Shown: one piece after another, positions 6,075-58,272 of the stretch
How positions within the stretch are numbered: the stretch's first letter is position 1
How the letters are laid out: each line of letters begins with the position of its first letter
DNA from: Bacteroidia bacterium
Lineage (GTDB): Bacteria > Bacteroidota > Bacteroidia > Bacteroidales > Prolixibacteraceae
Direction: 5' to 3'
DNA length: 58,272 bases
Assembly (NCBI GenBank): GCA_026391655.1
Contig: JAPLDR010000126.1
Location: forward strand, 1 to 58,272
The notes under the pieces: generated by a model
Database searches by the model: none
Told to the model about the DNA's origin: nothing
What the model saw: the letters and a program-made list of their open reading frames with translations, nothing else
Position numbers and translations under genes: made by a program

Positions 6075-8681
6075 TTATTTTTTGACAACAATTTTTGTAG
6101 TGTACAAATCTGTATGATTCAGCAGCACCTGAACAACATAAATACCCGCATCTAAATTGTTCACGAGTATCTCTTTGAGCAATTCACCGTTTGTATTTTC
6201 TGCATGAAATTCCATCAACTTTATCCCCGATGAATTGAGAATGCTGACAATTGCAGTCCCATCTGATGCATTATTTAATTGTAATGCAAAACTTACAGTT
6301 GCCGGATTTGGGTAAACCGAAAGAGATTTCAGCCCTGTAATTGAAACTGAATTAGATGGATTTTTACATCCATTTTTGTCGATCGTTTCCACTTTGTAAG
6401 CGTCTATCTGCTTATCTGTTGCATAATATTGCATAATTGCATTTGAAATTAAAGTGCTTCCCTTGTACCATTGGTAACTTGCTATTGAATCCCCTAAATT
6501 TGAGCAGATTAGAACATCGCCCCATTTTGCTTTTATTACAGGGACCAGTCCGGTTTTTATGATGTCAGATGACTGGTTGCTAAAAGCACTTTCAGGTCCG
6601 TCGTCATTCACGGCAGTCACGCGAAAATAATAGGTCTGGCCGTGTGTGAGTCCTGAAATAATTTTTAAAGTATCTGAAATGCTGGTTGTTGTGGAATCAA
6701 TTTTCAATGTCGGATTATTTGTGATACCGCCGTAAATCCGGTAACGTTGGAAATATGGGTCAGAGTTTTTTCTCCATTTCAAAGTGACAAGATTATTGCA
6801 CGAAACAGCTTTCAAAGCAGCTGGAGTCGCAGGCAAATCAGATAAGGTTATTACCGTTATTATATTTGTGCTGGCACCTGATCCTCCTGTATTATAAGCT
6901 CTTAAACGATAATAATATTTTGTTCTTGCACTTAATCCTGTAACACTTGAGAAGGTTTGATTCCCAACATCTTTGTCATTATAACCGCTAACGAAAGTTG
7001 TAAACCCAATATTAGTGGCAACATCCAACCTATAGCCTGTAGCAGTGGCAGAAGTATTCCAATTGGCAGTAAAACTTGTTTGAATAATATTGGTTGCCGG
7101 ATTTGCAGATGGAGCTGATGGTGGAATTTGAAAAATCGGAGCCGTAAATGATACTGTTTTATTGGTGGTGTTCTCAGTTATATTTGTAATGGGCTTACCA
7201 GTATTAGCACCCGCCCACGACAGGGAGTTTGGTGTGGTGAAATCGGTAAAAGAGGTTTTATTTCCGGTACCGGGGAAGGGTAGGCCTGCGTTATTGATGA
7301 CGCCATAAGTTGTTGGCGGAACACCTGTTGCATTGGCACAGACGGGATATATCCCTTGATGGCTACCTGTATTAATACCGTTTGAAGCGGTGCTGATATA
7401 GTTTCCATCGACGTGATAAATAATCATACCATGCCCTGGAATATAGCTGTCGAATTTTTGCTTTTGCCTGTTTTCTATCAGAAAAAATTCGTTCGATGTC
7501 GTTGTATTTAACCTGTAAAAGCTATTACTATTCTGCTCTGCATTGTCAAGCGTAATATTGGCTCCCGGAGTTAATGCAGTTGTTGTTGCCCATCCATAAG
7601 TATAAATTTTGGTGTAAGCGCTATGGTGGGCCGGTGTAGCTCCGTTGTTATTCCATCCACCTTCAGCCATAATATCCCAATCGCCGGTGCCGTTATATGA
7701 ACCGTTTGTGGCGTAATCGGTATCATAGTAATCTAAAGCACCCATTACATGACCAAACTCATGGCAAATAACCCCAATCCGGGTTATTCCCGTTCCACTA
7801 TTCCCTCTTAATTCTGCGGAACATGAATATCTGCTAACAATTTTTCCATCAAGCGTTAGGGGACTTATACTTGATGAATGAGCCCAGATGGCATCAGCGC
7901 TTACTCCGGTTACTTCCTCTCCATAACCGGCATAAATCACATAAACCCCGTCCACTGTCCCATCGCCATCATTATCAAAATCGGAATAGTTTACAGTTGG
8001 ATCTGCCAGGGTTATAGCTTCAGTAATTAAAGCTCCCGGATTAACGTCATTCCCGCTGGCATTATTCGCACCATAGTAGGCCATGTTATGAGCGGCATTA
8101 AAGGGACCGGCAACAGTTACTGTCAGATTTAGCTGGTTAAAAGAGTTTTCACTATAATAATCATTCACACTGCCAGTTGCACCATCAGCAGTATATCCAA
8201 TCTGATTAAATAAGTTTTCGAAATCTGCTTTTGTCTTTGTGAATGTTTTATCGGTAAATCCAATCAGAATACAAATTAATTTTCTTGAGCCTGAAGCTGG
8301 GAAAGCTTTCTGAGGGCTATTCAAATACATACCGGATATGCTTTTCATTACAAAAAGACCTTTCTTCGTTTGATTCAGGAATTGAATATCTGAAGGACTT
8401 CTTTCCGATTCATTTTTAGCCTGAATTCCCGAAGGAATCATATCATTATCGGAATTGAGCGTGGTATACTCATAAATACCATTGCTATTGCGCATAACTG
8501 AATATCCATCGATTGTTTGAGCCCATTTAACGTGTTCATCGCCTTTTTGAATGATAATTATCTTTGTCCCATCTGGCTGAGTAATCTCCATCGGAAAAGG
8601 GTAAGCAGGAATCCCAAATGCTGATTGATCGATCGCAATCAAAAGAATGAATATAAATAGAAACAGAATCTGCTTTCTCAT
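6075..8681 (-). CDS. Secreted M6-family metalloprotease with FN3 domains and a T9SS sorting tail
   Basis: 868 residues. A signal peptide (1-23) leads into the M6 peptidase domain (about 130-480), with the zinc motif 'HEFGHVMGALD' near residue 307; the two His and the Glu are intact. After it come two fibronectin-III-like modules (about 515-610 and 620-710), an Ig-like stretch with a Cys pair, and a C-terminal Por sorting domain ('SLSVYPNPATVSFALQL' to 'VVQVLLNHTDLYTTKIVVKK'). The tail directs type IX secretion through the outer membrane. The likely role is extracellular proteolysis. The barrel-protein gene follows closely; no T9SS machinery gene is in the window. Confidence 0.9.
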   Translation of the reverse strand: MRKQILFLFIFILLIAIDQSAFGIPAYPFPMEITQPDGTKIIIIQKGDEHVKWAQTIDGYSVMRNSNGIYEYTTLNSDNDMIPSGIQAKNESERSPSDIQFLNQTKKGLFVMKSISGMYLNSPQKAFPASGSRKLICILIGFTDKTFTKTKADFENLFNQIGYTADGATGSVNDYYSENSFNQLNLTVTVAGPFNAAHNMAYYGANNASGNDVNPGALITEAITLADPTVNYSDFDNDGDGTVDGVYVIYAGYGEEVTGVSADAIWAHSSSISPLTLDGKIVSRYSCSAELRGNSGTGITRIGVICHEFGHVMGALDYYDTDYATNGSYNGTGDWDIMAEGGWNNNGATPAHHSAYTKIYTYGWATTTALTPGANITLDNAEQNSNSFYRLNTTTSNEFFLIENRQKQKFDSYIPGHGMIIYHVDGNYISTASNGINTGSHQGIYPVCANATGVPPTTYGVINNAGLPFPGTGNKTSFTDFTTPNSLSWAGANTGKPITNITENTTNKTVSFTAPIFQIPPSAPSANPATNIIQTSFTANWNTSATATGYRLDVATNIGFTTFVSGYNDKDVGNQTFSSVTGLSARTKYYYRLRAYNTGGSGASTNIITVITLSDLPATPAALKAVSCNNLVTLKWRKNSDPYFQRYRIYGGITNNPTLKIDSTTTSISDTLKIISGLTHGQTYYFRVTAVNDDGPESAFSNQSSDIIKTGLVPVIKAKWGDVLICSNLGDSIASYQWYKGSTLISNAIMQYYATDKQIDAYKVETIDKNGCKNPSNSVSITGLKSLSVYPNPATVSFALQLNNASDGTAIVSILNSSGIKLMEFHAENTNGELLKEILVNNLDAGIYVVQVLLNHTDLYTTKIVVKK

Positions 8682-43832: not shown

Positions 43833-45179
43833 ATGATAAAATGGGACAAATTGATTGCCAACTGTCGGCTCGGACTTGAAGACCGAAGAATTCAGGAAGC
43901 TGATGATATCCGATCGACTTTCCAGCGTGATTACGACCGGATTATATTCTCCTCCCCATTCAGACGACTTCAGGATAAAACGCAGGTATTTCCACTGCCG
44001 GGAAGCATATTTGTCCACAACCGACTCACTCATTCGCTTGAGGTGGCGAGTGTCGGGCGTTCGCTGGGTAATCTCGTAACTGCAGCTATCAAGTCAGAAC
44101 AAGAGGCAGATTTTCAAAATATTACAGGTGAGATCGGTGCCATTGTTTCTGCGGCTTGTCTTGCACACGATTTGGGAAATCCACCATTCGGACATGCAGG
44201 AGAGAGTGCCATAGCCGATTTTTTCAAAAGTGGAGGCGGATCAAAATATAAACATGAAGTTACTGAAGCACAGTGGGCAGATTTCACCTGTTTCGAAGGA
44301 AATGCCAACGCTTTCAGAGTGCTCAGCCATCAGTTTTCGGGCAAAAGAAACGGAGGCTTTGCATTAACTTACAGTACATTAGCAAGTATTGTTAAGTATC
44401 CCTTCGAATCCTCACTTGCGGGAGGAAAACCTAAATTCGGATTTTTCCAAAGTGAAAAAGAGTTGTTTCGTAAAATTGCGTCACAACTGGATATGGTAAA
44501 AATATCGGATAGCCCGTTGCAGTATATGCGGCATCCGTTGGTCTATCTTGTCGAAGCGGCCGATGATATCTGTTATCAGATTATGGATGTGGAAGATGCC
44601 CATAAATTAAAAATTCTTACCTATTCTGAAACCGAATCACTCTTTCTTAACTTTTTTCATGCTGAAGAGGATCGTCAGTTGCTTGAAAACATCGCAGCAA
44701 ATTTAGAACTTGTAAGTGACTGCAACGAAAGGATTGCATACTTGCGAGCTATGGTGATTGGAAAACTCACGAAGGAGTGTGCTGCGCTATTTATTTCGCG
44801 AATTGATGAATTTAGTCATGCAGAAAAAATTGTATCATTATTTCATTCATTACCAGAACCTTCGAAAAGCGCAATGGCCCTGATAAGATCGGTTTCTCAG
44901 AAAAAAATATATAACGACAGAGCTGTCATTGAAATTGAAATTGCCGGTTACAAAATACTCGGTACATTGCTTGAAACATTTATCAGTGCCGTTATTGAGC
45001 CTAATGATTTTTTATCAAAGAAACTTTTGATGCTGATTCCCTCTCAATATCAGAATTCGGATGATTCGATGTATGGAAAAATTCAGTCAGTCATCGACTT
45101 TGTCTCGGGAATGACCGACCTTTTTGCACTTGATCTGTACCGCAAAATTACAGGAATGGAATTGCCTGGAATAGCTTGA
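43833..45179 (+). CDS. dgt: Deoxyguanosinetriphosphate triphosphohydrolase (dGTPase)
   Basis: 448 residues. 'RSTFQRDYDRIIFSSPFRRLQDKTQVFP' is the typical dGTPase start; the HD metal site is 'HNRLTHSLEVASVGRSLG' and 'LAHDLGNPPFGHAGE'; 'VYLVEAADDICYQIMDVEDA' follows. The enzyme splits dGTP to deoxyguanosine and triphosphate. No operon partner. It is a second HD-type phosphohydrolase beside the one at 33547. Confidence 0.92.
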   Translation: MIKWDKLIANCRLGLEDRRIQEADDIRSTFQRDYDRIIFSSPFRRLQDKTQVFPLPGSIFVHNRLTHSLEVASVGRSLGNLVTAAIKSEQEADFQNITGEIGAIVSAACLAHDLGNPPFGHAGESAIADFFKSGGGSKYKHEVTEAQWADFTCFEGNANAFRVLSHQFSGKRNGGFALTYSTLASIVKYPFESSLAGGKPKFGFFQSEKELFRKIASQLDMVKISDSPLQYMRHPLVYLVEAADDICYQIMDVEDAHKLKILTYSETESLFLNFFHAEEDRQLLENIAANLELVSDCNERIAYLRAMVIGKLTKECAALFISRIDEFSHAEKIVSLFHSLPEPSKSAMALIRSVSQKKIYNDRAVIEIEIAGYKILGTLLETFISAVIEPNDFLSKKLLMLIPSQYQNSDDSMYGKIQSVIDFVSGMTDLFALDLYRKITGMELPGIA

Positions 45180-45510: not shown

Positions 45511-45577
45511 ACAATAAAAATACTACTTTTACGCAACGACATTTCCCATTGTTCCATCATTAAGATAAATACGTATT
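45511..45577 (+). promoter_or_regulatory. Conserved upstream block of TonB-receptor module 1
   Basis: ACAATAAAAATA, then TACTTTTAC, then AACGAC lead into the GTG start; the same elements stand before module 2 (52009-52077). TACTTTTA differs by one base from the -7 consensus. The conservation implies common control of both modules. Confidence 0.5.
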
Positions 45578-48307
45578 GTGAAGTATTCTCAGACTGCAAT
45601 TTTTCATAAAGCACTCCTTCTGTTTATTACAATTCTGTTTTCGGCTCAGCCTGGTCGATCTCAAGAGATTCAGGAGATCAAAATTACGGGAAGTTATTCT
45701 AAAGCTCCATTGCTGGAGTTTTTCAGTTCACTTGAAAAAAACTATGGAATCAAGTTTTTTTATAAGGAAGAGTGGATAAAATCTACCGAAGTTACAAAGA
45801 CTTTCAACAATGTACCTTTGGTACAGGTTATGAATCAGATCTTTATTGGGAAGGACCTGACTTTTAAATTTTATCAGAATAAATCAGTGGTTATTTATCC
45901 GATAGGTGCGGCTAACCGTTCGGAGTCTGGCATTGATGATTCGAAAGTTCTGATTATTGGCGACCCACTCAATCAGGGGCGTTACCAGCGCGCCAAACTA
46001 CAAGGCCGGGTGCTTGAAGGGAAAACCGGTGATCCTCTTGCAGGTGCAATTGTTTACAATATGGAAACCAAAATCGGAGTTGCAACCGATTCGAAAGGAA
46101 GATACACAATGGAAATGCCAACCGGAGATATGCACCTTCGAATAACATTTTTGAGTTTTCAAAATCAAATTCAGAAAATACGACTCATCCAAAATGGAAA
46201 TGCCGATTTCGAACTATTCGAAGAGAGCCATAATCTTGCTGAAATAACCGTGATAGGTGATGAAAACAATGCATCGAAGGCGCAGATGAGCATGATAAAA
46301 ATGTCTGCTGTCACTCTAAAAGAGCTTCCTGTACTAATGGGTGAAGCCGATTTAATTAAAAGCATGGTGATGATGCCCGGCGTTCAAAGCGTCGGAGAGA
46401 TGTCGTCAGGATTCAATGTCCGTGGCGGAAATACAGACCAAAATCTTGTTCTGCTCAATGGTGCACCGGTTTTTAATACAACTCACCTTTTTGGTTTTTT
46501 TTCGATGATTAATCCCGATGGAGTAAAAGATGTGACTCTTTATAAAGGAGGAATTCCCGCATCCTATGGTGAACGAATCTCGTCGGTTATGGATGTGCAA
46601 CTTAAAAATGGTAAAGCAGAAAATCTTAGTATATACGGTGGTTTGGGAATTATTAACAGCCGCCTTACCATCGAAGGACCATTTGTGAAAAAGAAGAAAA
46701 GCACCTTTATGATTGGCGGCCGAAGCACTTATTCCGACTGGCTGCTTCAGCAAACGAAGAATCCCACCTTTATGAACAGTGTTGCCCATTTTTATGATGT
46801 GAATGGCACTGCAGATTTTGAATTAGGCCCCAGAAACCATTTAAAATTAACAGGATACCTAAGTTCCGATGTTTTTAATCTTAATTCCAGTTCGCTTTAC
46901 AAATATGCCAATTCACTTGGTTCGCTGAACTGGAAATTGAATCTTTCGAAAAAACTGATATCAAATTTAAGTCTGGCTTACAGCAAATACGATTTAAATA
47001 TGGATGAGAAGGATCCTGTCCGGCCGGAGGATGACTATACGTTGAAATCAAGTATTCAATACGGCAGCCTCAAGTATGCGTTATCTATTTATCCGACAGT
47101 CAGGCAACGAATTAATGCGGGTTTTCAAGCCATCGGATATTGGATAAATCCCGGAGAAGTTGTCCCATTGCAATCGGTCTCCGATGTACTTTACAAATCA
47201 TTACGGCATGAACAATCAGCCGAACTGGCATTGTTTACAGATGACGATTTCGACCTCTCGGAAAAGCTGTCATTTAACCTTGGATTGCGCTATACAAAGT
47301 TTATCAACTACGGTCCGGGAGTTGTTTACAATTATACACCTGGAGTTCCGAAAACGCAAAGTGCAATCACTGATTCAACTGTTTACAAGTCGGGAGATAT
47401 CATAAAAGCCTATCAGGGACTTGAACCGCGTTTTGCTGTAAAGTATAATCTGGCGGATGGAGGTTCGTTCAGATTAAGCTTTCAGCGAATTCACCAGTTT
47501 GTCAGCCAGATTTCAAATACAGCCGTCATCTCACCGGCTGATTACTGGAAATCGGCCGATCCCTATCTTGCACCATTAATCAACGATCAGATCGCGTTAG
47601 GCTTTTTTAAAAATCCCGGGAAAGGAAAGTATGAAACATCTGTTGAAATGTATTACAAAAAATTGCAAAACTTAATGGAATATAAAAACGGGGCTCAACT
47701 CCTGATGAACAATCACATAGAAACAGATTTGCTGATGGCAACCGGTTACTCGTATGGTATTGAGTTATTGGCAAAAAAGAATGAGGGACGATTAAACGGA
47801 TGGATCAGCTATACTTATTCGAGAACGTTTCGAAAAGCTGATAGTCAGTTTAGTGACGAAAAAATCAATGGCGGAGCATTTTACCCTTCAGTATATGATA
47901 AACCTCATGATCTTTCGGCGGTGATGAATTACAAAATCAGTCGGCGGTGGCGATTTTCAGGAAATTTTGTCTTTTCATCGGGTAGACCAATTACGCTGCC
48001 GGAGCAAAAATACATTTACGGAGAGCATCAGGTGGTGGTCTTTTCCGACAGAAATAAATACAGGATGCCACCTTATCATCGTATGGACGTGAGTCTTACA
48101 TTGGATGAAAACCTTCGTAAAAAAAGGATGTGGAAAGGAAGCTGGACCTTCTCAGTCTACAACCTTTACGGACGTAAAAATCCCTATTCGGTTTTTTACA
48201 GAAAGGGTGCAACTTCTCAGGAGACCGGTCAAAGCCGGTATGACGTCTACAAATTGTCCCTCATTGGAGTTCCTGTCCCATCTATCACCTATAATTTTAA
48301 ATTCTGA
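45578..48307 (+). CDS. TonB-dependent receptor with STN and carboxypeptidase-like domains (module 1)
   Basis: 909 residues, GTG start. After the signal peptide (about 1-28) come an STN domain (34-108, 'ITGSYSKAPLLEFFSSLEKNYGI'), a carboxypeptidase-like regulatory domain (140-225, 'GDPLAGAIVYNMETKIGV'), the plug (about 240-360, with 'FNVRGGNTDQNLVLLNGAPV') and the 22-strand barrel ending 'SITYNFKF'. STN domains signal to periplasmic anti-sigma factors, but none is nearby. It overlaps the next lipoprotein gene by one base (TGATG). Pairing with DUF4249 lipoproteins differs from SusC/SusD. Substrate unknown. Confidence 0.92.
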   Translation: MKYSQTAIFHKALLLFITILFSAQPGRSQEIQEIKITGSYSKAPLLEFFSSLEKNYGIKFFYKEEWIKSTEVTKTFNNVPLVQVMNQIFIGKDLTFKFYQNKSVVIYPIGAANRSESGIDDSKVLIIGDPLNQGRYQRAKLQGRVLEGKTGDPLAGAIVYNMETKIGVATDSKGRYTMEMPTGDMHLRITFLSFQNQIQKIRLIQNGNADFELFEESHNLAEITVIGDENNASKAQMSMIKMSAVTLKELPVLMGEADLIKSMVMMPGVQSVGEMSSGFNVRGGNTDQNLVLLNGAPVFNTTHLFGFFSMINPDGVKDVTLYKGGIPASYGERISSVMDVQLKNGKAENLSIYGGLGIINSRLTIEGPFVKKKKSTFMIGGRSTYSDWLLQQTKNPTFMNSVAHFYDVNGTADFELGPRNHLKLTGYLSSDVFNLNSSSLYKYANSLGSLNWKLNLSKKLISNLSLAYSKYDLNMDEKDPVRPEDDYTLKSSIQYGSLKYALSIYPTVRQRINAGFQAIGYWINPGEVVPLQSVSDVLYKSLRHEQSAELALFTDDDFDLSEKLSFNLGLRYTKFINYGPGVVYNYTPGVPKTQSAITDSTVYKSGDIIKAYQGLEPRFAVKYNLADGGSFRLSFQRIHQFVSQISNTAVISPADYWKSADPYLAPLINDQIALGFFKNPGKGKYETSVEMYYKKLQNLMEYKNGAQLLMNNHIETDLLMATGYSYGIELLAKKNEGRLNGWISYTYSRTFRKADSQFSDEKINGGAFYPSVYDKPHDLSAVMNYKISRRWRFSGNFVFSSGRPITLPEQKYIYGEHQVVVFSDRNKYRMPPYHRMDVSLTLDENLRKKRMWKGSWTFSVYNLYGRKNPYSVFYRKGATSQETGQSRYDVYKLSLIGVPVPSITYNFKF

Positions 48308-49431
48308 TGCAAAAAGAACTAAAATACCTGTTATTACTGCTGGTTTTCTTTGTTTCTTGCGAACAGTATTATCAACCAGATATCGAAAGGATTGATGGCC
48401 AGCTTGTTGTTGAGGCGAGAATTACCAATGACTTATCGAGGAACCTAGTTCATCTGACACGAACCCGCAGTTTTAATGATAAGGTACCACTTACGGAAGT
48501 CTCGGGTGCCACGGTAGAGCTGGTAGAAAATAAAACCAATAAGATTCGGGGTACTGAAAGTAGTCCGGGATTTTATGTTTTTAATTCAGTTCCGGTAAGC
48601 GGGAAAAATTATTTTTTGCGAATTGGAATTCTAAATGATATTTATGAGTCGCAAGAGGTCACCATGCCTCCAATTCCGACAATTAATAATTTCATATCAG
48701 AGTATGTTATAAAAAAAGTATACGTTAACAACGTAGAGGGTATACCGCAACCATTTGATAAACCGGAGAGAGAATTTTATGCCGATATGCCAGTTACAAA
48801 TTCACTATCTTACTATAGGTTCGATGTAAAAACAGTATGGGAATGGCACTGGGATTCAATTCCAAATACGCACTCCTCCATTCCTTCAGCCTATGGATGG
48901 TATGTTTATCATGAAAAAGAAAGTTTCAACCTGGCCGGTCCTAAAAATTTCAGCCTGGCCGAAAAAATAGAAAAACATCCCCTTTTGGCAGTATCATATA
49001 ATATATATGATTATCTCTATGCCGATACTTTATTCACAAAAGCTGATACCTTGTACACAAAAGGGTGTATAATAGTCGTTGATCAGTATGGCACTTCAAA
49101 AGAATCATACGAATATCACGAAAAGATGAACAGTCAATTCTTAGCTGTTGGCAGTCTTTTCGATCCTATTCAGACTCAAATCTATGGGAATGTAATATGC
49201 AAAACTAATGCTTCAAAGATTGTTTTCGGGTATTTCGATCTGAATTCGTATGCACAGTTTCGTTTTTATTTTAATTTGTGGGAACCGCCCGGTAAAGTTA
49301 TTTTGAGACAAATTTTCCGTTATCCTGATATACCAGACACTAAAGGGATGAAGAGATCGCAACCGATAAAAGGTCCACCTGATGAAATACCACCGCCACT
49401 GCCACCACCCGTTTGGTGGGAATATTTATAG
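48307..49431 (+). CDS. DUF4249 lipoprotein, module 1
   Basis: 374 residues. Lipobox 'FFVSCEQ' (Cys17); the acidic residue right after the Cys is reminiscent of surface-export signals of Bacteroidetes lipoproteins. An N-terminal beta-sandwich ('IDGQLVVEARITNDLSRN' to 'YESQEVTMPPIPTI') is followed by a domain with 'DQYGTSKESYEYHEKMNSQF', 'FDPIQTQIYGN' and 'KIVFGYFDLNS', and a Pro-rich end ('PPPLPPPVWWEYL'). DUF4249 proteins accompany TonB receptors; function unknown. Translation is coupled to the receptor. Confidence 0.88.
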   Translation: MQKELKYLLLLLVFFVSCEQYYQPDIERIDGQLVVEARITNDLSRNLVHLTRTRSFNDKVPLTEVSGATVELVENKTNKIRGTESSPGFYVFNSVPVSGKNYFLRIGILNDIYESQEVTMPPIPTINNFISEYVIKKVYVNNVEGIPQPFDKPEREFYADMPVTNSLSYYRFDVKTVWEWHWDSIPNTHSSIPSAYGWYVYHEKESFNLAGPKNFSLAEKIEKHPLLAVSYNIYDYLYADTLFTKADTLYTKGCIIVVDQYGTSKESYEYHEKMNSQFLAVGSLFDPIQTQIYGNVICKTNASKIVFGYFDLNSYAQFRFYFNLWEPPGKVILRQIFRYPDIPDTKGMKRSQPIKGPPDEIPPPLPPPVWWEYL

Positions 49432-49507
49432 GACGTATAGTTGGATATTTCAGCAGTTTAACAAATGAATAACAGTTTGCCATTAATATAAAAACAGAGA
49501 TTTAAAC

Positions 49508-51118
49508 GTGAAAAGAAGAATAATTACAGGGTTACTACTCTTTTTTGCTTTGACAGGCAAAGCTCAGGAAAGAGAGTACTTCAACCTTTTTACTGACCGC
49601 GATCTTTATATCAGTGGTGAAACCCTTTTGCTCAAAGTATTTGCGCCATCAGATGAACAATCAGGAATCGTTAGTGTTGATTTGATCAATACCAACGGGA
49701 AAATAATTTCAGGAATTAGTAAGAAAATAATTGATCATCAAACAGATGGATTTATTGATCTTCCTGATTCCTTAAGTTCGGGATGTTATCTGCTCTGCAC
49801 ATCAACAAAAACAAATCCTACTTTAACTGTCAAAGAGATATACATTAGTAACCAATTTTCCGGCTTACCCGAATCGAATTTCGCTTTACGATCATCAGAA
49901 ACTAACTCCGTGGCTGAAAAGCCAGCTGCGCTACAAATCGATGGTCTTGATACCACCTATAAAACAAGAGGGAAAGCTAACTTAACCCTTCGCCTGCCGT
50001 CTGAACTTCTTTCACAAATAAATGAGAATCTGTTTGTTAGTGTTGCAGAAATAGCTCCCGGGTACAATCCGAATACCTTCTATAGAATTGCCAAACCCAA
50101 AAAAAACCAAATCATTGAAAAAGAAGGGGTTATTCTTGAAGGATTCGTCAAAGATATTAAAACCGGAGAGCCATTTAAAAATGGTATCGTCTTTCTTTCG
50201 ATTCCCGATACAATTCCGAGGTTCAAATATTACATCACAGGTGAAGACGGTCATTTTAATTTCCAACTTGACAATTACTTTGGAAAAATACCTGTTGTTG
50301 TTCAAGGCTTTGACCCGGACGAAAAGCGACTTCTCAAAGTTGTCCTTAACAATCGCGACAGTCTTAAAAGTGGCATACCAGCTTTCGAAACCTGGACCAT
50401 TTCTCCCGAATTCCGAAAGAGCACAATGGATAATATTGATGCAGTAACTTTTAGTAAAATATTTAATTGTCAGGAACTTACAATCGCACCAATTCCGGTA
50501 AATAAAACAGACGACTACCCCTTTTACGGAGTTCCAACCGAGGTTATCGATCCGCAGCTATTTATCGAACTTCCTAATTTTACCGAAATTTCACGCGAAC
50601 TTTTGCCGGGTGTTAAATTCAGGGCGTATAACCGGATACCATCATTACAGGTTTTCAGCCCGGCATTGCACAACTTTTTTAACGACCAGCCATTGCTATT
50701 ACTCGACGGCATTCCTATTCGTGATCTAAATGTCATTAAAGATTTGGGGTCAAAAGAGATAGACCGCATAGAAGTTTGCCATAGCAAAAGGTTTTACGGT
50801 AATCTGGTCTTCTATGGTGTAGTTGCCATTTATACCTCAAAACCTGATTACAATCGCGTAGCAGAATCAGATGATCTTATAAAACTCAACCTTAATGTAA
50901 TTCAGCCCAATGTAACCTTAAATGTCCCTTTAGAACAACGATTAAACGAGATGGATCTGCGTAAGGTGTTACTTTGGAAACCATCATTAAAGCCTGAACA
51001 AAACATCAACCTTGATTTTGAGACGTCTGATATCAGGGGCAATTATAAGCTGATTATACATGGAAAAACCAAAGACGGATCTACTTTTTATAAAGAACAA
51101 ATTTTTGAGGTAAATTAA
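49508..51118 (+). CDS. MG2-like exported protein with a TonB-plug-like segment, module 1
   Basis: 536 residues, GTG start. Signal peptide 1-19. An alpha-2-macroglobulin MG2-like domain ('LFTDRDLYISGETLLLKVFA', to about residue 115) is followed by a carboxypeptidase-like segment ('LEGFVKDIKTGEPFKNGIVF'), then a plug-like stretch ('QPLLLLDGIPIRDLNVIKDL', 'IDRIEVCHSKRFYGNLVFYG') without any barrel, and a C-terminal beta domain ('NIDLDFETSDIRGNY'-like). It looks like a free plug carried by an MG2 scaffold. A paralogue starts at 58073. Confidence 0.78.
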   Translation: MKRRIITGLLLFFALTGKAQEREYFNLFTDRDLYISGETLLLKVFAPSDEQSGIVSVDLINTNGKIISGISKKIIDHQTDGFIDLPDSLSSGCYLLCTSTKTNPTLTVKEIYISNQFSGLPESNFALRSSETNSVAEKPAALQIDGLDTTYKTRGKANLTLRLPSELLSQINENLFVSVAEIAPGYNPNTFYRIAKPKKNQIIEKEGVILEGFVKDIKTGEPFKNGIVFLSIPDTIPRFKYYITGEDGHFNFQLDNYFGKIPVVVQGFDPDEKRLLKVVLNNRDSLKSGIPAFETWTISPEFRKSTMDNIDAVTFSKIFNCQELTIAPIPVNKTDDYPFYGVPTEVIDPQLFIELPNFTEISRELLPGVKFRAYNRIPSLQVFSPALHNFFNDQPLLLLDGIPIRDLNVIKDLGSKEIDRIEVCHSKRFYGNLVFYGVVAIYTSKPDYNRVAESDDLIKLNLNVIQPNVTLNVPLEQRLNEMDLRKVLLWKPSLKPEQNINLDFETSDIRGNYKLIIHGKTKDGSTFYKEQIFEVN

Positions 51119-51119
51119 T

Positions 51120-51821
51120 ATGGCCAACAGGATTCTATCTATCATCACCCTTTTCGGATTATTTGCAGCCTCATCACTCGCGGCGCAAGAAGAATTGCCC
51201 AAAAACCTGAATGCCGAAAAAATAAAAGGGATGTCTTTTATCCCTTATTCCTCCTTTTCAGGATCACCCTATTTGAGTGAGAAGTTCCTGATCGGTGAGA
51301 TTGAATTTTTAGACGGGACAAAAGCTGGTAATCTCGGATTGCGTTACAGCTCATATCGCGATGAGATAATTTACTATAATACATATCTTTCATCTCAAAT
51401 TGTCATCGACAAAATCAGTATTAAAGGATTCTCATTTACCGACGGAAATGGAGTCAGAAGGGTTTTTCGTCGACAAAATTATACCGGTTATTTAAACGGC
51501 GAACGTTTTTTTGAGGTACTGAGTGATGGCAAAATATCGCTTCTTGCATATCGAAAAGTTGATCTGGGGACTTGTGATCCTTCATATAGCAAACTGGGTT
51601 TAGCCTATCAACAATCATATACCTATTATATGTATGCTGCCGGCAAGGGTTATTCTCCGCTTTCGCTAAACCGAAATTCACTGCTTTCAAAATTCGATAA
51701 ACCAAACCAAAAGTTGGCAAAAAAAGTACTCCGTAAAAATAAAGTGATGTTCACTGATGAAGCAAGTTTTGTTTTAGCCTGGAACGTGCTTAAAGAGAAT
51801 GGGATAAGCATAAGCTTCTGA
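51120..51821 (+). CDS. Exported hypothetical protein, module 1
   Basis: 233 residues, family not recognised. Signal peptide 1-22. 'GEIEFLDGTKAGNLGLRYSSYRDEIIYYN' and 'IDKISIKGFSFTDGNGVRRVFRR' suggest a compact beta-rich fold; the C-terminal 40 residues are basic ('KPNQKLAKKVLRKNKVMF'). The ATG lies one base after the stop of the MG2-like gene, so it belongs to the same operon. Its counterpart in module 2, if any, lies beyond the window. Confidence 0.7.
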   Translation: MANRILSIITLFGLFAASSLAAQEELPKNLNAEKIKGMSFIPYSSFSGSPYLSEKFLIGEIEFLDGTKAGNLGLRYSSYRDEIIYYNTYLSSQIVIDKISIKGFSFTDGNGVRRVFRRQNYTGYLNGERFFEVLSDGKISLLAYRKVDLGTCDPSYSKLGLAYQQSYTYYMYAAGKGYSPLSLNRNSLLSKFDKPNQKLAKKVLRKNKVMFTDEASFVLAWNVLKENGISISF

Positions 51822-52008
51822 AACCGGGATAGAGAGAAGTTGAGAGAGGGAGTTGTTTAGAGTCAACTTGAAAAGAATAGGTGAAGGTGTTATGTTGATG
51901 ACCTTCTGAACATTGATTTGATGGAAACTCAACCCATATTTTTGCCATCAACGGGCATCATGAAGATTCAAAATCATGAAATCTCAATCGCATTTTCAAA
52001 TATGTTTT

Positions 52009-52077
52009 ACAATAAAAATATCTACTTTTACAAAACGACGTTTACCAAATTTTCAATCATCAAGACTACGACATATC
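52009..52077 (+). promoter_or_regulatory. Conserved upstream block of TonB-receptor module 2
   Basis: Copy of the block before module 1: ACAATAAAAATA, TACTTTTAC, AACGAC, and ATCAT-AAGA before a GTG start. It ends at the GTG at 52078. It argues for that start over the ATG at 51976, which lies upstream of the block. Confidence 0.5.
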
Positions 52078-54788
52078 GTGAAGCATCTTCAAATTACAAT
52101 TTTGCATAAAGCACTTTTTCTGATTACAACGATTTTTCTTTCAGTTCAATCGGGTCGATCGCAGGAAATTCAGGAGATCAAAGTTTCCGGAAGTTTTACA
52201 AAGGCTCCCATTCAGGAGTTCTTCTATTCACTCGAAAAAAACTATGGAATCCGTTTTTTTTATAAGGAAGAGTGGATAAAATCTATGGAGGTTACAAAGA
52301 CCTTTAACAATGTACCGCTGGTACAGGTTATGAATCAGATATTAACGGGTAAGGAATTGACTTTTAAATTTTTTCAGAATAATTCAGTGTTCATTTACCC
52401 GCTGGGCGCTGATAATCGTACCGGGTCGGGTGTTGACGATTCACAAGTTCTGGTCATTGGCGATCCGCTCAATCAGGGACGTTATCAGCGGGCCAAACTG
52501 CAAGGTAAAGTGCTCGACGGCAAAAATGGTGAGCCGCTGCCTGGCGCAGTGATTCACAATCTGGAAAGCGGACTTGGGACATCAACCGATTCGAAAGGAA
52601 AATATACTTTTGAAATGGCCACAGGCGAAATGCACCTTCGGGTATCTTTTTTGGGATTCGAAAATCAAACTCAGAAAATAAGATTAATCCAGAATGGAAA
52701 TGCCGATTTCGAACTTTTTGAACAGAGCCATAAAATTGCTGAAATAACCGTGGTTGGTGAAGAAGCCAAAGCCTCAAAGGCTCAGATGAGCATGATAAAA
52801 ATGACATCCATCACGTTAAAGGAACTCCCTGTGCTGATGGGGGAGGCTGATCTGATCAAAAGTATGGTTATGATGCCTGGTGTTCAAAGTGTCGGAGAGA
52901 TGGCATCGGGATTCAATGTCCGGGGTGGAAATACTGACCAAAATCTTGTTTTATTGAATGGTTCACCTGTTTTCAATACAACTCATTTATTTGGTTTCTT
53001 CTCGATGATTAATCCCGATGCAATTAAAGATGTGACACTTTATAAAGGGGGAATTCCAGCCGCCTATGGCGAGAGAATCGCTTCAGTGATGGATGTACAA
53101 CTTAAGGAAGGAAGAGAAGAGAATCTTAGTATTAATGGTGGTATTGGATTGATTAACAGCAGACTTACCGTCGAAGGACCGTTTGCGAAAAAAAAGAAAA
53201 GCACTTTTATGATCGGCGGCCGAAGCACCTATTCAGATTGGCTGCTCAAACAAACGAAGAATCCCACATTTATGAATAGTGTGGCGCATTTTTACGATGT
53301 TAACGGTACTGCAAATATTGAATTTGGTCCTAAAAACCATTTAAAATTAATGGGTTACATAAGTTCCGATGTTTTTAATCTGAATTCCAGTTCACTTTAC
53401 ACGTATGCCAATTTGCTCGGTTCGCTGAACTGGAAATTGAATCTTTCGAAAAAACTGATCTCAAATTTAAGTCTCGCTTACAGCAAATACGATTTAAATA
53501 TGGATGAGAAGGATCCTGTTCGACCTGAGGACGATTATACACTGAAATCGAATATTCAATACCGCAGTCTAAAATATTCACTTTCTTATTATCCTACAAA
53601 TAAACAGCGAATTAATGTGGGTTTCCAGGCCATCGGATATAAGATAAAACCAGGCCGGATTCTCCCCACCCAAAAAATCTCAAATGTTCTTTCCAGATCG
53701 TTGCGTGAAGAGCAATCAGCTGAAATGGCATTGTTTGCAGATGATGATTTTGATTTGTCGGAAAAACTTTCATTTAATCTTGGATTACGCTACTCCAGGT
53801 TTGTAAACTACGGACCGGGAATTGTGTACAATTATGCACCCGGACTTCCGAAAAGTCTCAGTTCCATCATCGATTCAACAGTTTACAATTCAGGAGATAT
53901 CATTAAAGCCTATCAGGGACTCGAGCCCCGAATTGCTGTGAAATATAATCTCGAGAATGAAGGTTCATTAAGGTTAAGCTATCAGCGAATTCACCAGTTT
54001 GTCAGTCAGATTTCCAATACAGCCGTTATCTCACCCGCCGATTACTGGAAATCGGCTGATCCGAATCTGGCTCCGTTAATCAACGATCAAATCGCATTCG
54101 GCCTTTTCAAAAATCTCAGGAATGGTAAATACGAGACATCGGTTGAATTGTATTACAAAAAATTGCAAAACATGATAGAATACAAAAACGGTGCGCAACT
54201 ACTTATGAATAACCATATAGAAACAGATCTGCTCTTAGCCAACGGCTATTCGTATGGCTTTGAGCTATTGGCCAAAAAGAATGAGGGACGTTTAAACGGA
54301 TGGATCAGTTACACCTATTCGAGGACTTTCCGAAAAGCAGATAGTCGGTTCAGCGACGAAAAAATCAATAGCGGAACCTATTACCCATCGGTGTATGATA
54401 AACCTCACGATCTGTCGGCGGTAATGAATTACAAGATCAGCCGAAGGTGGCGGTTCTCGGGAAATTTTGTCTTTTCATCGGGCAGACCAATTACGCTACC
54501 GGAGCAGAAATATAATTACGGAACGAATCAGGTGGTGATCTATTCCGATAGAAATATCACCGTATGGATGTGAGTATTACATTGGATGAGAACTTGCGTG
54601 TAAAACGAATGTGGAAAGGTAGCTGGACCTTCTCTATCTACAATCTTTATGGCCGAAAAAACCCTTACTCGGTTTTTTACCGCAAGGATGCATCGGTGCA
54701 AAGTACAGAGAAAACCCAATACTCCATCTACAAATTGTCGATAATTGGTGTTCCAGTTCCTTCGATCACTTATAATTTTAAATTCTGA
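52078..54788 (+). pseudogene. TonB-dependent receptor, module 2, frameshifted near its end
   Basis: Same architecture and strong similarity to the receptor at 45578 (STN, carboxypeptidase-like, plug, barrel). GTG start matches the first copy. Against it, 19 bases are missing after 54556 (equivalent to 48057-48075), so the frame ends at 54573 with 'VVIYSDRNITVWM'. The last part continues in another frame (54564-54788), still ending 'SITYNFKF'. Loss of the final strands and terminal Phe should prevent outer-membrane assembly. The rest has not decayed, so the event is recent, reversible, or a sequence error. Confidence 0.85.
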
Positions 54789-55843
54789 TGTTCAAACAAC
54801 TAATATACCTCTCGCTTTTGCTAATTCTTTTTGCCTCGTGTGAAGAGTATTATACTCCGGCAATTGATAGTGTTGAAGGTCAATTAGTTGTTGAAGCAGT
54901 GATCACCAATAATTCGTCAATAAATTTTGTCCATTTGACCTATGCACGCAATTTTTCGGATGACCAGCCTCTGAAGGTTGTATCAGGGGCCAGCGCAGAG
55001 CTTGTCGAAATCGATGGTAAAGTTATAAAAGGCATTGAAAATACCTGGGGCTATTTCACCTTCAATATGGTTCCGGTAGTCGACAGAAATTATAAACTGC
55101 GTATTTTCCTAAAGAAGGATGTTTATGAATCTGAGGTGGTTACCATGCCTCCTCTCCCGACAATTTCCAATTTTTATGCGGAACATGTTGAGAAAACGAA
55201 GAATGCATCAGATGGTTATAATATTCCAGCGGGTTTTGTTATTCAAGGGAGAGAGATGTACGCCGATATACCTGTAACCAATCTGCTATCGTACTACCGT
55301 TTTGATGTTAGATCAATTTTAGAATGGATATATATTCCCGTAACTGCTAAAGGCCCCTCTCTACCACCAATCTACGGGTGGCAATCGTATTTCGAACGCA
55401 ATCGGTTCAACCTTGCCGGACCCGGTAAATTCAGTCAGATCAAAAATATTGAAAAGTATCCGCTTTTGATGTTGGTGTATAATAAAGATTATTACTTTCA
55501 TTCCGACACCGTTACGTCCGATGGATGGATACTGATCATTGATCAATTTGGTACGTCCAAAGAATCATTCGAATATCATGAAAAACTGAACAGTCAATTT
55601 GCAGCCGACGGTAATCTCTTCGATCCTATTCAGACCCAGGTATACGGGAATATCACCTGTTTAACAGATCATGCAAAAATTGTTTTCGGATATTTCGATT
55701 TGAATTCTCATCAGCAATATCGTTATTATTACGATATGTCTGGTCTTGGCGCTGAGATGAAGCTTAGGCAAATATTCCGTTATCCGGACATTTCTGATTT
55801 TGGGCAGGTTGATAAATCGCCACCTGACTGGTGGGAAAAATGA
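54788..55843 (+). CDS. DUF4249 lipoprotein, module 2, copy 1
   Basis: 351 residues. Lipobox 'LFASCEEYY' (Cys18) with Glu-Glu after the Cys. The sandwich domain ('EGQLVVEAVITNNSSINF' to 'YESEVVTMPPLPTI') and the second domain ('DQFGTSKESFEYHEKLNSQF', 'FDPIQTQVYGN', 'KIVFGYFDLNS') are conserved; a Pro-rich loop ('KGPSLPPIYGWQSYF') lies near residue 195. The end is 'PPDWWEK'. TGATG overlap with the receptor remnant, as in module 1. First of three tandem copies. Confidence 0.88.
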   Translation: MFKQLIYLSLLLILFASCEEYYTPAIDSVEGQLVVEAVITNNSSINFVHLTYARNFSDDQPLKVVSGASAELVEIDGKVIKGIENTWGYFTFNMVPVVDRNYKLRIFLKKDVYESEVVTMPPLPTISNFYAEHVEKTKNASDGYNIPAGFVIQGREMYADIPVTNLLSYYRFDVRSILEWIYIPVTAKGPSLPPIYGWQSYFERNRFNLAGPGKFSQIKNIEKYPLLMLVYNKDYYFHSDTVTSDGWILIIDQFGTSKESFEYHEKLNSQFAADGNLFDPIQTQVYGNITCLTDHAKIVFGYFDLNSHQQYRYYYDMSGLGAEMKLRQIFRYPDISDFGQVDKSPPDWWEK

Positions 55844-55872
55844 ACATTTAATAGTCATAATTTGAAATTAAA

Positions 55873-56952
55873 ATGTATAAAAAACTGATATACTTCTCAT
55901 TTTCGCTCATTCTTTTTGCTTCGTGTGAAGAGTATTATACTCCGCATATCGATCTGATTGATGGGCAACTTGTTGTGGAAGCTCAGATAACCAACAATCC
56001 ATCGAAAAATTTTGTCCGTCTGACCAAAACGCGTGGTTTTTACGACACTCACTCACCGGCGGTAGTATCGGGAGCAAGTGTTGTACTCGTCGAAATTAAT
56101 GGCAATGTAACAAAGGGAATTGAAAACAGCATAGGTTATTTTCAATTCAATACTGTTCCCGTGAGCGGTAAAAAATATAAATTACGTATCATTTACCAAA
56201 ATGACACCTACGAGTCAGAGGAAGTGACTATGCCTCCTCTCCCGGTTGTTTTAAGTGCATATTCGGGAAACAAAATCGAAAGGTATTACAGAACCGACGC
56301 ATATGGAGTTCCGCAAGCTTTTGACAGACCGGGCAGAGAGATTTATTTTGATCTTTCGGCAACAAACACTCTTTCGTATTACCGATTCGATACAAGAGCA
56401 ATCATCGAATGGATTTACTATATTCCTATGACTGGGCCGCCACCTCCCAACGACCCTCCTCCGCCTAATGTAATCTATGGGTGGCATTCGTATTATTTTA
56501 ATGAAAGATACAACATTGCCGGCCCGAAAGCATTCAGCCATTCGAATATAATTGAAAAACACCCGTTATTAACACTGGCCGATAATGCCCGGGAATACCT
56601 CCAGTCTGACACATTATTAATGAGCGGATGGATATTGATCATTGACCTATATGGCACTACTAAAGGATCATTTGATTTTCACGGGAAGTTGAACAGTCAA
56701 TTTGCTGCCGACGGTAGCCTTTTTGATCCGGTTCAGACTCAAATCTATGGAAATATTACATGTATAACCAATCCGTCAAAAATTGTATTCGGGTATTTCG
56801 ATTTAAATTCGTATCAGCAGAACCGTTATTATATAAACTTAGACACTCAAAAAGAAAATATTAAACTGAGGCAAATATTCAGGTATCCTGATATTCCGGA
56901 GGAAGGGCAAATCCTTAGTCTGGGTTCGTCTCCCGATTGGTGGGAAAGATAA
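55873..56952 (+). CDS. DUF4249 lipoprotein, module 2, copy 2
   Basis: 359 residues, lipobox 'LFASCEEYY' (Cys18). Same two-domain layout as its neighbours. The Pro-rich loop is the longest here ('PPPPNDPPPPNVIYGWHS'), and the segment 'NKIERYYRTDAYGVPQAF' is shared with copy 3 but not copy 1. It ends 'SSPDWWER'. It starts 29 bases after copy 1 and probably sits on the same transcript. Confidence 0.88.
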   Translation: MYKKLIYFSFSLILFASCEEYYTPHIDLIDGQLVVEAQITNNPSKNFVRLTKTRGFYDTHSPAVVSGASVVLVEINGNVTKGIENSIGYFQFNTVPVSGKKYKLRIIYQNDTYESEEVTMPPLPVVLSAYSGNKIERYYRTDAYGVPQAFDRPGREIYFDLSATNTLSYYRFDTRAIIEWIYYIPMTGPPPPNDPPPPNVIYGWHSYYFNERYNIAGPKAFSHSNIIEKHPLLTLADNAREYLQSDTLLMSGWILIIDLYGTTKGSFDFHGKLNSQFAADGSLFDPVQTQIYGNITCITNPSKIVFGYFDLNSYQQNRYYINLDTQKENIKLRQIFRYPDIPEEGQILSLGSSPDWWER

Positions 56953-56980
56953 TATTGAAACAGACAGAATTCATATTTTA

Positions 56981-58036
56981 ATGCACAAAGAACTAAAATA
57001 TCTCTTGTTATTGTTAATACTCCTCGCATCATGCGAAGAGTATTATACTCCGAATATCGATCTAATTGATGGACAGCTTGTTGTTGAGGCTATGATCACC
57101 AACGATCTATCCAGAAATTTTGTTCACCTTACCAAAACGAGTGATTTTTACAACAAGCAGCAAACTGGCGACGTAATCGGTGCAAGTGTAGAACTCATCG
57201 AAAATAGCAGCAAAGTGGTAATGGGTACTGAAAGTGGTACAGGATATTTCAGGTTCAGTACAGTTCCAGTGATCGGTAAAAATTATAAGTTGCGTATTAA
57301 ATACCAAAATGAGACCTACGAATCTGAAATAGTCACAATGCCTCCTCTCCCGACTATTCTGGATGCATATTCGGGAAACAAAGTGAAAAGAATATATAGG
57401 ACTGATGCATACGGAATTCCGCTACCCCTTGATATGAAGGGAAGAGATATTTATATTGATGCTCCGGTAACGAATGAACTTTCACACTATCGCTTTTTCA
57501 CAAGATCAATCCTGCAATGGCTTTATGCACCTGCCGGTAAGGGTGGCCCTCCACCTCCGCCACTCTTTGGATGGCAATCGTTTTATGACAATTCAATATT
57601 TAACATTGCAGGTCCGAAAACTTTCAGTCAGTCCGATAAAATTGAAAAGCATCCGATATTGTGGCTGTCGTATGATTCAAGGGATTACCTCTTAACTGAT
57701 ACATTAGTCTCTTATGGATGGATATTGATCGTTGACCAATATGGCATTTCAAAAGGTTCGTATGAATTTCACGAAAAGCTGAACAGCCAATTTACCGCTG
57801 ATGGTAGTCTGTTCGATCCGATTCAGACTCAAGTCTATGGAAATATCACCTGCATAACAGATCCTTCAAAGATTGTGTTCGGATATTTCGATTTGAATTC
57901 CTATCGGCAGTACCGTTATTATACGAATTTGTATGTTCAGGAAAAAGACATTAAACTGAGACAAATACTCAGTTACCCCTATATTCCCGAAAAAGGACAG
58001 ATCTATGGTTTCCCTCCCGATTGGTGGGAAAGATAA
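56981..58036 (+). CDS. DUF4249 lipoprotein, module 2, copy 3
   Basis: 351 residues, lipobox 'LLASCEEYY' (Cys18). 'NKVKRIYRTDAYGIPLPL' ties it to copy 2, so these two probably split last. The Pro-rich loop reads 'GKGGPPPPPLFGWQSFY'; the end is 'FPPDWWER'. Start lies 28 bases after copy 2. It precedes the MG2-like paralogue by 36 bases. Confidence 0.88.
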   Translation: MHKELKYLLLLLILLASCEEYYTPNIDLIDGQLVVEAMITNDLSRNFVHLTKTSDFYNKQQTGDVIGASVELIENSSKVVMGTESGTGYFRFSTVPVIGKNYKLRIKYQNETYESEIVTMPPLPTILDAYSGNKVKRIYRTDAYGIPLPLDMKGRDIYIDAPVTNELSHYRFFTRSILQWLYAPAGKGGPPPPPLFGWQSFYDNSIFNIAGPKTFSQSDKIEKHPILWLSYDSRDYLLTDTLVSYGWILIVDQYGISKGSYEFHEKLNSQFTADGSLFDPIQTQVYGNITCITDPSKIVFGYFDLNSYRQYRYYTNLYVQEKDIKLRQILSYPYIPEKGQIYGFPPDWWER

Positions 58037-58072
58037 ACGTTAAACAGCGATAAGGCACAGAATAAAATTAAG

Positions 58073-58272
58073 ATGGAACGAAAATTATTTATATTATTAC
58101 TGCTTTTCCTTGCGTTTTCGGCTAAAGCTCAGGAAAAAGAGAACCTCAGCCTTTTTACCGACCGTGATCTGTATGTCAGCGGTGAAACCCTTTTGCTCAA
58201 GGTATTTACACCTGTAGCCGAACAATCAGGAATCGTTAATATCGACCTGATTAACCGCGGAGGGAAAAAAAT
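58073..58272 (+). CDS. MG2-like exported protein, module 2 (cut by window end)
   Basis: ATG at 58073, no stop before the window ends; 66 codons visible. Signal peptide ('LFILLLLFLAFSAKAQ') and then 'LFTDRDLYVSGETLLLKVFT', nearly identical to the protein at 49508 ('LFTDRDLYISGETLLLKVFA'). It is the paralogue at the same place in module 2 and shows that the duplication extends beyond the window. Confidence 0.8.
   Translation, partial: MERKLFILLLLFLAFSAKAQEKENLSLFTDRDLYVSGETLLLKVFTPVAEQSGIVNIDLINRGGKK

Follow-up and report, generated by a model that had tools for sequence, protein, structure and literature searches.

Tandem copies of a TonB receptor, DUF4249 lipoprotein and MG2-plug gene block in a Prolixibacteraceae genome, a candidate lidded uptake system

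The window analyzed here is a stretch of 58,272 nucleotides (positions 1-58,272 of contig C58) from a genome of about 5 Mb in 149 contigs, whose nearest named relatives are Mariniphaga/Prolixibacteraceae metagenome genomes. Its right end carries two tandem copies of a four-gene block on the forward strand, each encoding a TonB-dependent receptor (TBDT), one or more DUF4249 lipoproteins, an MG2-plug protein (MGP) and an exported protein of about 235 residues (P233). The 909-aa receptor of copy 1 (45578..48307) consists, by Pfam, of an STN/FecR_C-like N-terminal domain, a CarboxypepD_reg-like domain (residues 141-225), a plug (242-333) and a beta-barrel (405-863). It is followed by a single 374-aa DUF4249 lipoprotein (48307..49431; PF14054, E=2.3e-25), a putative surface lid; by a 536-aa MGP (49508..51118), exported and MG2/plug-like, with neither barrel nor lipobox; and by an exported P233 of 233 aa (51120..51821). 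Copy 2 has three DUF4249 genes (54788..55843, E=2.3e-23; 55873..56952, E=6.9e-24; 56981..58036, E=3.8e-27) behind a receptor of the same STN, CarboxypepD_reg, plug and barrel layout (51976..54573). A preliminary description of this DNA had recognized both receptors with their lipoproteins, which score 83.6-96.0 bits against the PF14054 cut-off of 28.5, and had placed an MGP in each copy. The second MGP indeed runs on along the contig to 59,587 (match 58073-59584, plug region included), only its N-terminal 66 residues lying inside the window (58073..58272). The 233-residue protein had been assigned to the first copy alone; beyond the window, however, copy 2 has a 237-aa homolog that is 64% identical to it (contig 59,589-60,302), and both copies thus hold the full set.

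The receptor gene and the first lipoprotein gene overlap as TGATG in both copies (48305-48309 and 54786-54790), just as had been described. In copy 2 the receptor frame is interrupted, leaving an open reading frame (ORF) of 865 aa: compared with copy 1, the sequence differs in length by 19 bases at about 54,555, and the rest of the barrel is encoded in a different frame that runs to the TGATG (to 54,788). The copy-2 receptor ORFs of four relatives measure 910-933 aa (L057, L059, L060 and L061; L-numbers are locus labels). The genome looks like a metagenome assembly, as those of its near relatives are, so that the break may be either an assembly error or real decay. A further receptor and DUF4249 pair in the window genome (L151, contig C138, 5663-8877) has its receptor split over two ORFs that overlap, which may be another frame break of the assembly.

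How constant is this arrangement? A search of 41 genomes (the window's own and 40 relatives) detected MGP in 20 at E<=1e-10, and the order receptor, DUF4249, MGP is present in 19 of the 20 stretches fetched around these matches, 19 of which come from relatives; the remaining stretch (L052) begins inside MGP. Scanning one genome per species yielded 68 loci, which together with the window locus and 11 loci from a survey of the phylum give 80 loci and 92 MGP ORFs, fragments included. Seventy-five of these ORFs directly follow a DUF4249 gene on the same strand, and 69 have a receptor upstream of that as well; recurrence of the gene order, which the preliminary description had set as its own test, is thereby borne out, and the arrangement is no product of chance. 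Since the loci were collected via MGP, its presence is given by construction; that its partners are so constant does not follow from the way of searching. P233 stands at one end of 61 of the 69 receptor-DUF4249-MGP blocks, with the proviso that, where copies are in tandem, a P233 ahead of a receptor could be part of the copy before it. Most loci come from metagenome assemblies, and the flanks span at most about 10 kb per side. The blocks are tightly packed, with a one-base overlap at 39 of the 69 receptor/DUF4249 junctions and a median gap of 1 base between MGP and P233 (n=44). The block is present in many Bacteroidia, Chitinophaga costaii and Marinifilum breve among them. In most Prolixibacteraceae loci it ends with P233, whereas in most other lineages P233 leads it; three Marinifilum loci have the set divided into two divergent halves, and in one locus (L051, 757-11333) the receptor and MGP are separated by five consecutive DUF4249 genes.

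Could MGP and P233 simply be hitch-hikers, held by synteny beside an ordinary TBDT-DUF4249 pair? Relatives of both exist alone. Seventeen MGP ORFs lack a DUF4249 neighbor, two of them at contig edges and 15 being stand-alone members or fragments in ten loci (from Chitinophagaceae, Sphingobacteriales, Algoriphagus, Cyclobacteriaceae and an unplaced metagenome-assembled genome, MAG); the stand-alone member L117 is followed by a 231-aa receptor-like ORF. P233 has paralogs elsewhere, including one more in the window genome, and several survey loci sit among housekeeping genes. The near-zero gene spacing, however, is kept while the flanks differ between lineages, and the genes stay together even where P233 shifts from the end of the block to its front or, as in Marinifilum, the set is split. 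We regard hitch-hiking as an unlikely explanation of the block.

In a phylum sample of 118 genomes, MGP-family matches were found in at least 27 and DUF4249 in 67, and the two stand side by side in at least 11, the window genome included; because no more than 11 candidates were scored in each genome, the MGP counts are lower bounds, and the side-by-side cases were counted by hand from listed positions. In one genome (G120) MGP and DUF4249 are convergent with one gene between them. The 11 loci from the ten other survey genomes all have a receptor; seven have a P233 match, three have an unmatched ORF of 156-248 aa in its place and one has neither. As a control, 20 other DUF4249 sites were picked by hand, one per genome: a receptor lies directly upstream in 14, P233 is present at none, and an MGP-family gene lies nearby, on the other strand, at one. 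The receptors of the control sites are shorter, at 725-915 aa, one of them cut by a contig end. Two long DUF4249 genes (L146 and L147) have no matched receptor or MGP adjoining and are possibly orphan lids; their genome, G139, also has two complete blocks.

What sets the receptors of the larger blocks apart? Among receptors of 850-970 aa from MGP loci, shorter and mostly edge-cut ones being excluded, an STN-like region was detected in 66 of 66, as against 0 of 16 receptors of simple TBDT-DUF4249 pairs (14 from the control sites plus L148 and L149) and 3 of 7 SusC-like rows. The profile used was built from 13 receptors of MGP loci, and the start of the CarboxypepD_reg domain serves as an independent check: its median residue is 151 in MGP-locus receptors, 31 in pair receptors and 42 in SusC-like ones. 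All Pfam STN matches fall below the cut-off, both in the window receptors (19.5 bits in copy 1, against 28.4) and in a spot check that gave E<1e-4 in 3 of 5 operon receptors versus 0 of 5 pair receptors; FecR_C lies slightly above its cut-off of 24.4 in both window receptors (24.5 in copy 1). A quick receptor tree of 59 rows, for which the two from the window and a random draw of 34 operon receptors were combined with the 16 pair receptors and the seven SusC-like ones, places the operon receptors together, with 2 label changes versus a shuffled mean of 18.4. The window receptor clusters with other DUF4249-linked receptors, and the operon receptors are apart from the SusC-like rows. Judged by sequence, the STN-like domain, MGP and mostly P233 travel together, with few origins, which limits the statistical weight of their association. 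This suggests two kinds of DUF4249 system: the receptor with its lid alone, and a larger set in which the receptor has an STN-like domain and is joined by MGP and usually P233.

The STN-like domain may be a feature in common with FecA/FecR-type receptors, in which the STN contacts the anti-sigma factor FecR. Might the block then serve trans-envelope signaling, with the receptor's STN reporting ligand binding and MGP or P233 replacing or modifying a FecR relay? The strict occurrence of the domain in MGP-locus receptors, and its absence from pair receptors, would favor this. Yet no regulator gene lies within the block, and no more than 8 of 80 loci, the window's not among them, have an ECF-like ORF in the flanks retrieved, the other 72 being without one in flanks that are limited and sometimes cut short by contig ends; no search aimed at FecR was made, and regulators may be encoded at a distance from the block. 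We find a signaling function improbable, though no more so than hitch-hiking.

The oddest feature, as had been remarked from the outset, is the free plug of MGP. In copy 1 this protein comprises a signal peptide, an MG2-like domain (residues ~21-125), a middle domain, a CarboxypepD_reg-like domain (~205-290), a degenerate plug (~346-450) and a C-terminal domain. Its initial description as MG2-like with a plug and no barrel is upheld through profiles and relatives, although in the window protein itself both matches lie below the Pfam cut-offs (MG2, 13.9 of 32.8 bits; Plug, 14.9 of 23.9 bits) and only 4 of 22 MGP members give a Pfam Plug match at E up to 1. The MGP family profile matches the MG2 domain of complement C3 at E=4.7e-5 and the SusC plug at E=0.019. 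Aligned by hhalign with the CarboxypepD_reg and plug of the operon's receptor, MGP matches both in the same order (probability 94.2). Taken as slices, CarboxypepD_reg scores 96.2 and the plug alone 48.9, compared with at most 1.3 for 20 column-shuffled plug slices; because the plug match covers only 33 columns and an unrelated C-terminal MGP slice scored 26.1 against CarboxypepD_reg, the value of 48.9 alone is not decisive. Longer relatives are clearer. Among ten tested against Pfam, MG2 is above the cut-off in four (L116, L117, L136 and L139) and Plug in two, both stand-alone (L116, from Algoriphagus, and L117, from a Cyclobacteriaceae MAG), so that these two pass for both domains; the best operon-linked plug tested reaches 21.9 of 23.9 bits (L106, Marinifilum). 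A profile of 17 longer members matches the SusC plug at 2.9e-10 and that of BtuB at 0.006. From these comparisons we conclude that the barrel-less plug is authentic in origin, related to the PF07715 plug of SusC, BtuB and Cir, and that the window version has diverged and is degenerate; by eye, it lacks the RGG motif of the receptor's plug.

Of the other domains of alpha-2-macroglobulin and complement C3, Pfam gave no thioester or bait-region family in the window MGP at E up to 1, and A2M_BRD appears only at 0.14 in L117. The look of a C-terminal motif had suggested that the plug occupies the position of a macroglobulin bait region, an idea that was dropped since no match backs it. A type IX secretion system sorting tail (Pfam, 0.035) was likewise rejected, being below threshold and at residues 51-105 rather than at the C-terminus. 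At six loci (L109-L111, L114, L115 and L122) a stand-alone MG2-plug gene of ~800 aa has beside it genes for a protein of ~1,460 aa carrying PKD-like repeats and for one of ~338 aa resembling PorP/SprF, both as judged by eye.

A simple regular expression detects a lipobox in 53 of 70 DUF4249 proteins, 3 of 76 MGPs and 5 of 59 P233 proteins. Within the DUF4249 protein of copy 1 the lipobox cysteine (Cys18) is invariant in 25 of 25 aligned relatives, and an acidic residue comes just after the cysteine in 48 of the 53 regex-positive proteins, which would fit a surface-export signal. No SusD family was detected in the four window lipoproteins at E up to 1 in Pfam, one of them also matching CarboxypepD_reg at 0.042, and the best match of the DUF4249 profile in the PDB (0.46) is at chance level. 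In the window, the DUF4249 gene lies directly beside a TBDT of the DUF4249-associated kind. A partnership of this type has been published, with genetic support, for BT2172 and BT2173 of Bacteroides thetaiotaomicron, where the TBDT gene is likewise followed by the DUF4249 gene in a conserved operon (available part of PMC11003636). The preliminary description was thus right that DUF4249 proteins accompany TonB receptors, while its statement that they have no assigned function is partly outdated. Next to what is described of the B. thetaiotaomicron pair, the window receptor has an STN-like domain in addition, and MGP and P233 would be further members of the operon, in which DUF4249 genes can number up to five (L051). 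The title of a preprint cited in the published work (10.1101/2023.03.17.533168) reportedly speaks of lids. In the literature searched, which did not cover preprints, DUF4249 is mentioned in one paper, nothing was found that describes MGP, P233 or their link to STN, and PMC13142918, PMC12704123 and PMC7568257 are, in their available parts, not about MGP. Of the undescribed system proposed earlier, the TBDT-DUF4249 partnership is therefore already known; MGP, P233 and the link to STN are the new part, as far as the literature found goes.

P233 itself has no Pfam or NCBIfam match above the cut-off. Its best profile match in the PDB (0.038) looks like chance and was set aside, and one relative shows a weak LolA2-like match at 0.048. 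In 6 of 29 stand-alone loci sampled (L173, L175, L176, L179, L182 and L184, three of them from one genus) a P233 paralog lies at most three genes from a receptor match. The background for such proximity is roughly 6-15%, as estimated from 12 of these genomes, which have 22-71 plug matches each; against it, a role of P233 as general SusCD accessory is suggestive only and is not used in our argument. Some of the paralog loci are ordered SusC-like, SusD-like (by eye), small lipoprotein, P233. It may be that P233-like proteins act as accessories of TonB transporters more generally.

Why two copies? Between the two copies the receptors are 82% identical, the lids 54-55%, MGP 61% and P233 64%, and the least similar barrel segment of the two receptors is residues 525-600 (71%). 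For all four proteins, each window copy is nearest to the same-numbered copy of L057. The two receptors of the genome are as similar to each other (82%) as receptors of different species are (81%), unlike MGP and P233, which diverge more inside the genome than across species. This pattern might point to receptor gene conversion but does not prove it. Similar receptors combined with divergent lids, MGP and P233 suggest related receptors specialized for different ligands.

Our preferred reading, to which we give a probability of roughly 55%, is that the locus specifies, twice in tandem, an outer-membrane uptake system of four components, probably a lidded TonB importer to which two periplasmic proteins are added as accessories. 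Lidded TonB transporters are a main uptake route of Bacteroidota. By analogy with SusD over SusC, the DUF4249 lipoprotein or lipoproteins would capture a ligand on the outer face and close over the barrel, and TonB would pull the receptor's plug so that the ligand enters. On the periplasmic side, the receptor's STN-like domain may dock MGP, P233 or both. MGP, with an MG2-type domain around a copied CarboxypepD_reg and plug unit, could be an adaptor that senses the receptor or the emerging cargo from below, and the tandem copies could serve different ligands. SusC and SusD share the receptor layout of CarboxypepD_reg, plug and barrel and the adjoining lipoprotein gene; the window receptors nevertheless score 65.5 and 69.6 bits, far under the NCBIfam cut-off of 368.25 for TIGR04056 (SusC/RagA), and their lipoprotein is DUF4249, not SusD. 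From the clean association with STN one can predict the surfaces that ought to be in contact, and a plug with no barrel makes one ask what such a domain does when apart from it.

Several observations weigh against this reading of the block as an uptake system. Eight of the 69 blocks have no P233 match, some of them at contig ends; 15 of the 92 ORFs, counting fragments, belong to MGP-family proteins of ~800 aa that are found without DUF4249; and P233 has paralogs in other contexts, so that neither MGP nor P233 is exclusive to it. The STN profile was made from MGP-locus receptors and matches SusC-like rows too. In the tree, which was quick and gave long-branch warnings, the operon receptor L145, whose branch is long, falls with two of the pair receptors, and the association of STN, MGP and P233 lies near one origin on that tree and hence does not represent many independent events. 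The pairing of copies, consistent between the window and L057, is less so in the remaining three tandem genomes, where some proteins pair better when the copy numbers are exchanged, and the distance correlations of 0.63-0.86, obtained without a control gene, mostly reflect common descent. Finally, the presumed periplasmic location of MGP and P233 rests on a signal peptide without lipobox and on the lack of a sorting tail above the cut-off. That both are exported and mostly lack a lipobox, and that the receptor has an Oar-like layout, would also suit a TBDT-driven exporter, with MGP (or P233) as periplasmic chaperone or as cargo expelled via the receptor, in the manner of Oar in PopC secretion by Myxococcus xanthus, where a TBDT is required (available part of PMC6434023); this is less probable still than hitch-hiking or signaling, for the Oar-like receptor layout of CarboxypepD_reg, plug and barrel is dominant in Bacteroidetes according to the same source and, being general in the phylum, lends export little weight, MGP has no sorting signal above the cut-off, and the B. 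thetaiotaomicron DUF4249 partnership is described, in the part of PMC11003636 available, for a transporter with a lid.

Within the framework of a lidded importer, a bolder role for MGP can be imagined, in which its CarboxypepD_reg and plug unit enters or seals the partner barrel from the periplasm, or replaces the receptor's own plug while TonB is pulling on it. We consider such a plug in trans highly improbable, and to our knowledge there is no known case of this gating for any TonB-dependent transporter. Were it true, a bulky ligand could pass without the outer membrane being left open, and the stand-alone members of ~800 aa, some with a canonical plug, could serve other receptors likewise.

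What might the ligand be? The preliminary description had the MG2 protein handle a bulky polymer or protein, for which we find no evidence. Among the gene clusters listed, no enzyme gene travels with the block across lineages, which distinguishes it from a polysaccharide utilization locus, where carbohydrate-active enzymes accompany the receptor. A peptidase-like gene (by eye) lies near the block in nine of the 68 loci, which are close relatives of one another, and housekeeping genes make up most of the small number of flanking genes tested. At L135-L137, L139 and L143 the block is found near genes for polynucleotide phosphorylase, a primary-type sigma factor, DNA polymerase I, IF-2 and a pyridoxal phosphate (PLP)-dependent enzyme. 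Upstream of the block in the window are a gene with a phosphohydrolase-associated domain (43833-45179), whose product we take to be dGTPase-like, a phosphate transporter gene and one for a YgjP-like metallopeptidase. Downstream on the same contig lies a convergent GH3 gene, and near relatives have similar ORFs. At the other end of the window, positions 6075-8681 encode an M6 peptidase with a fibronectin type III domain and a type IX secretion tail.

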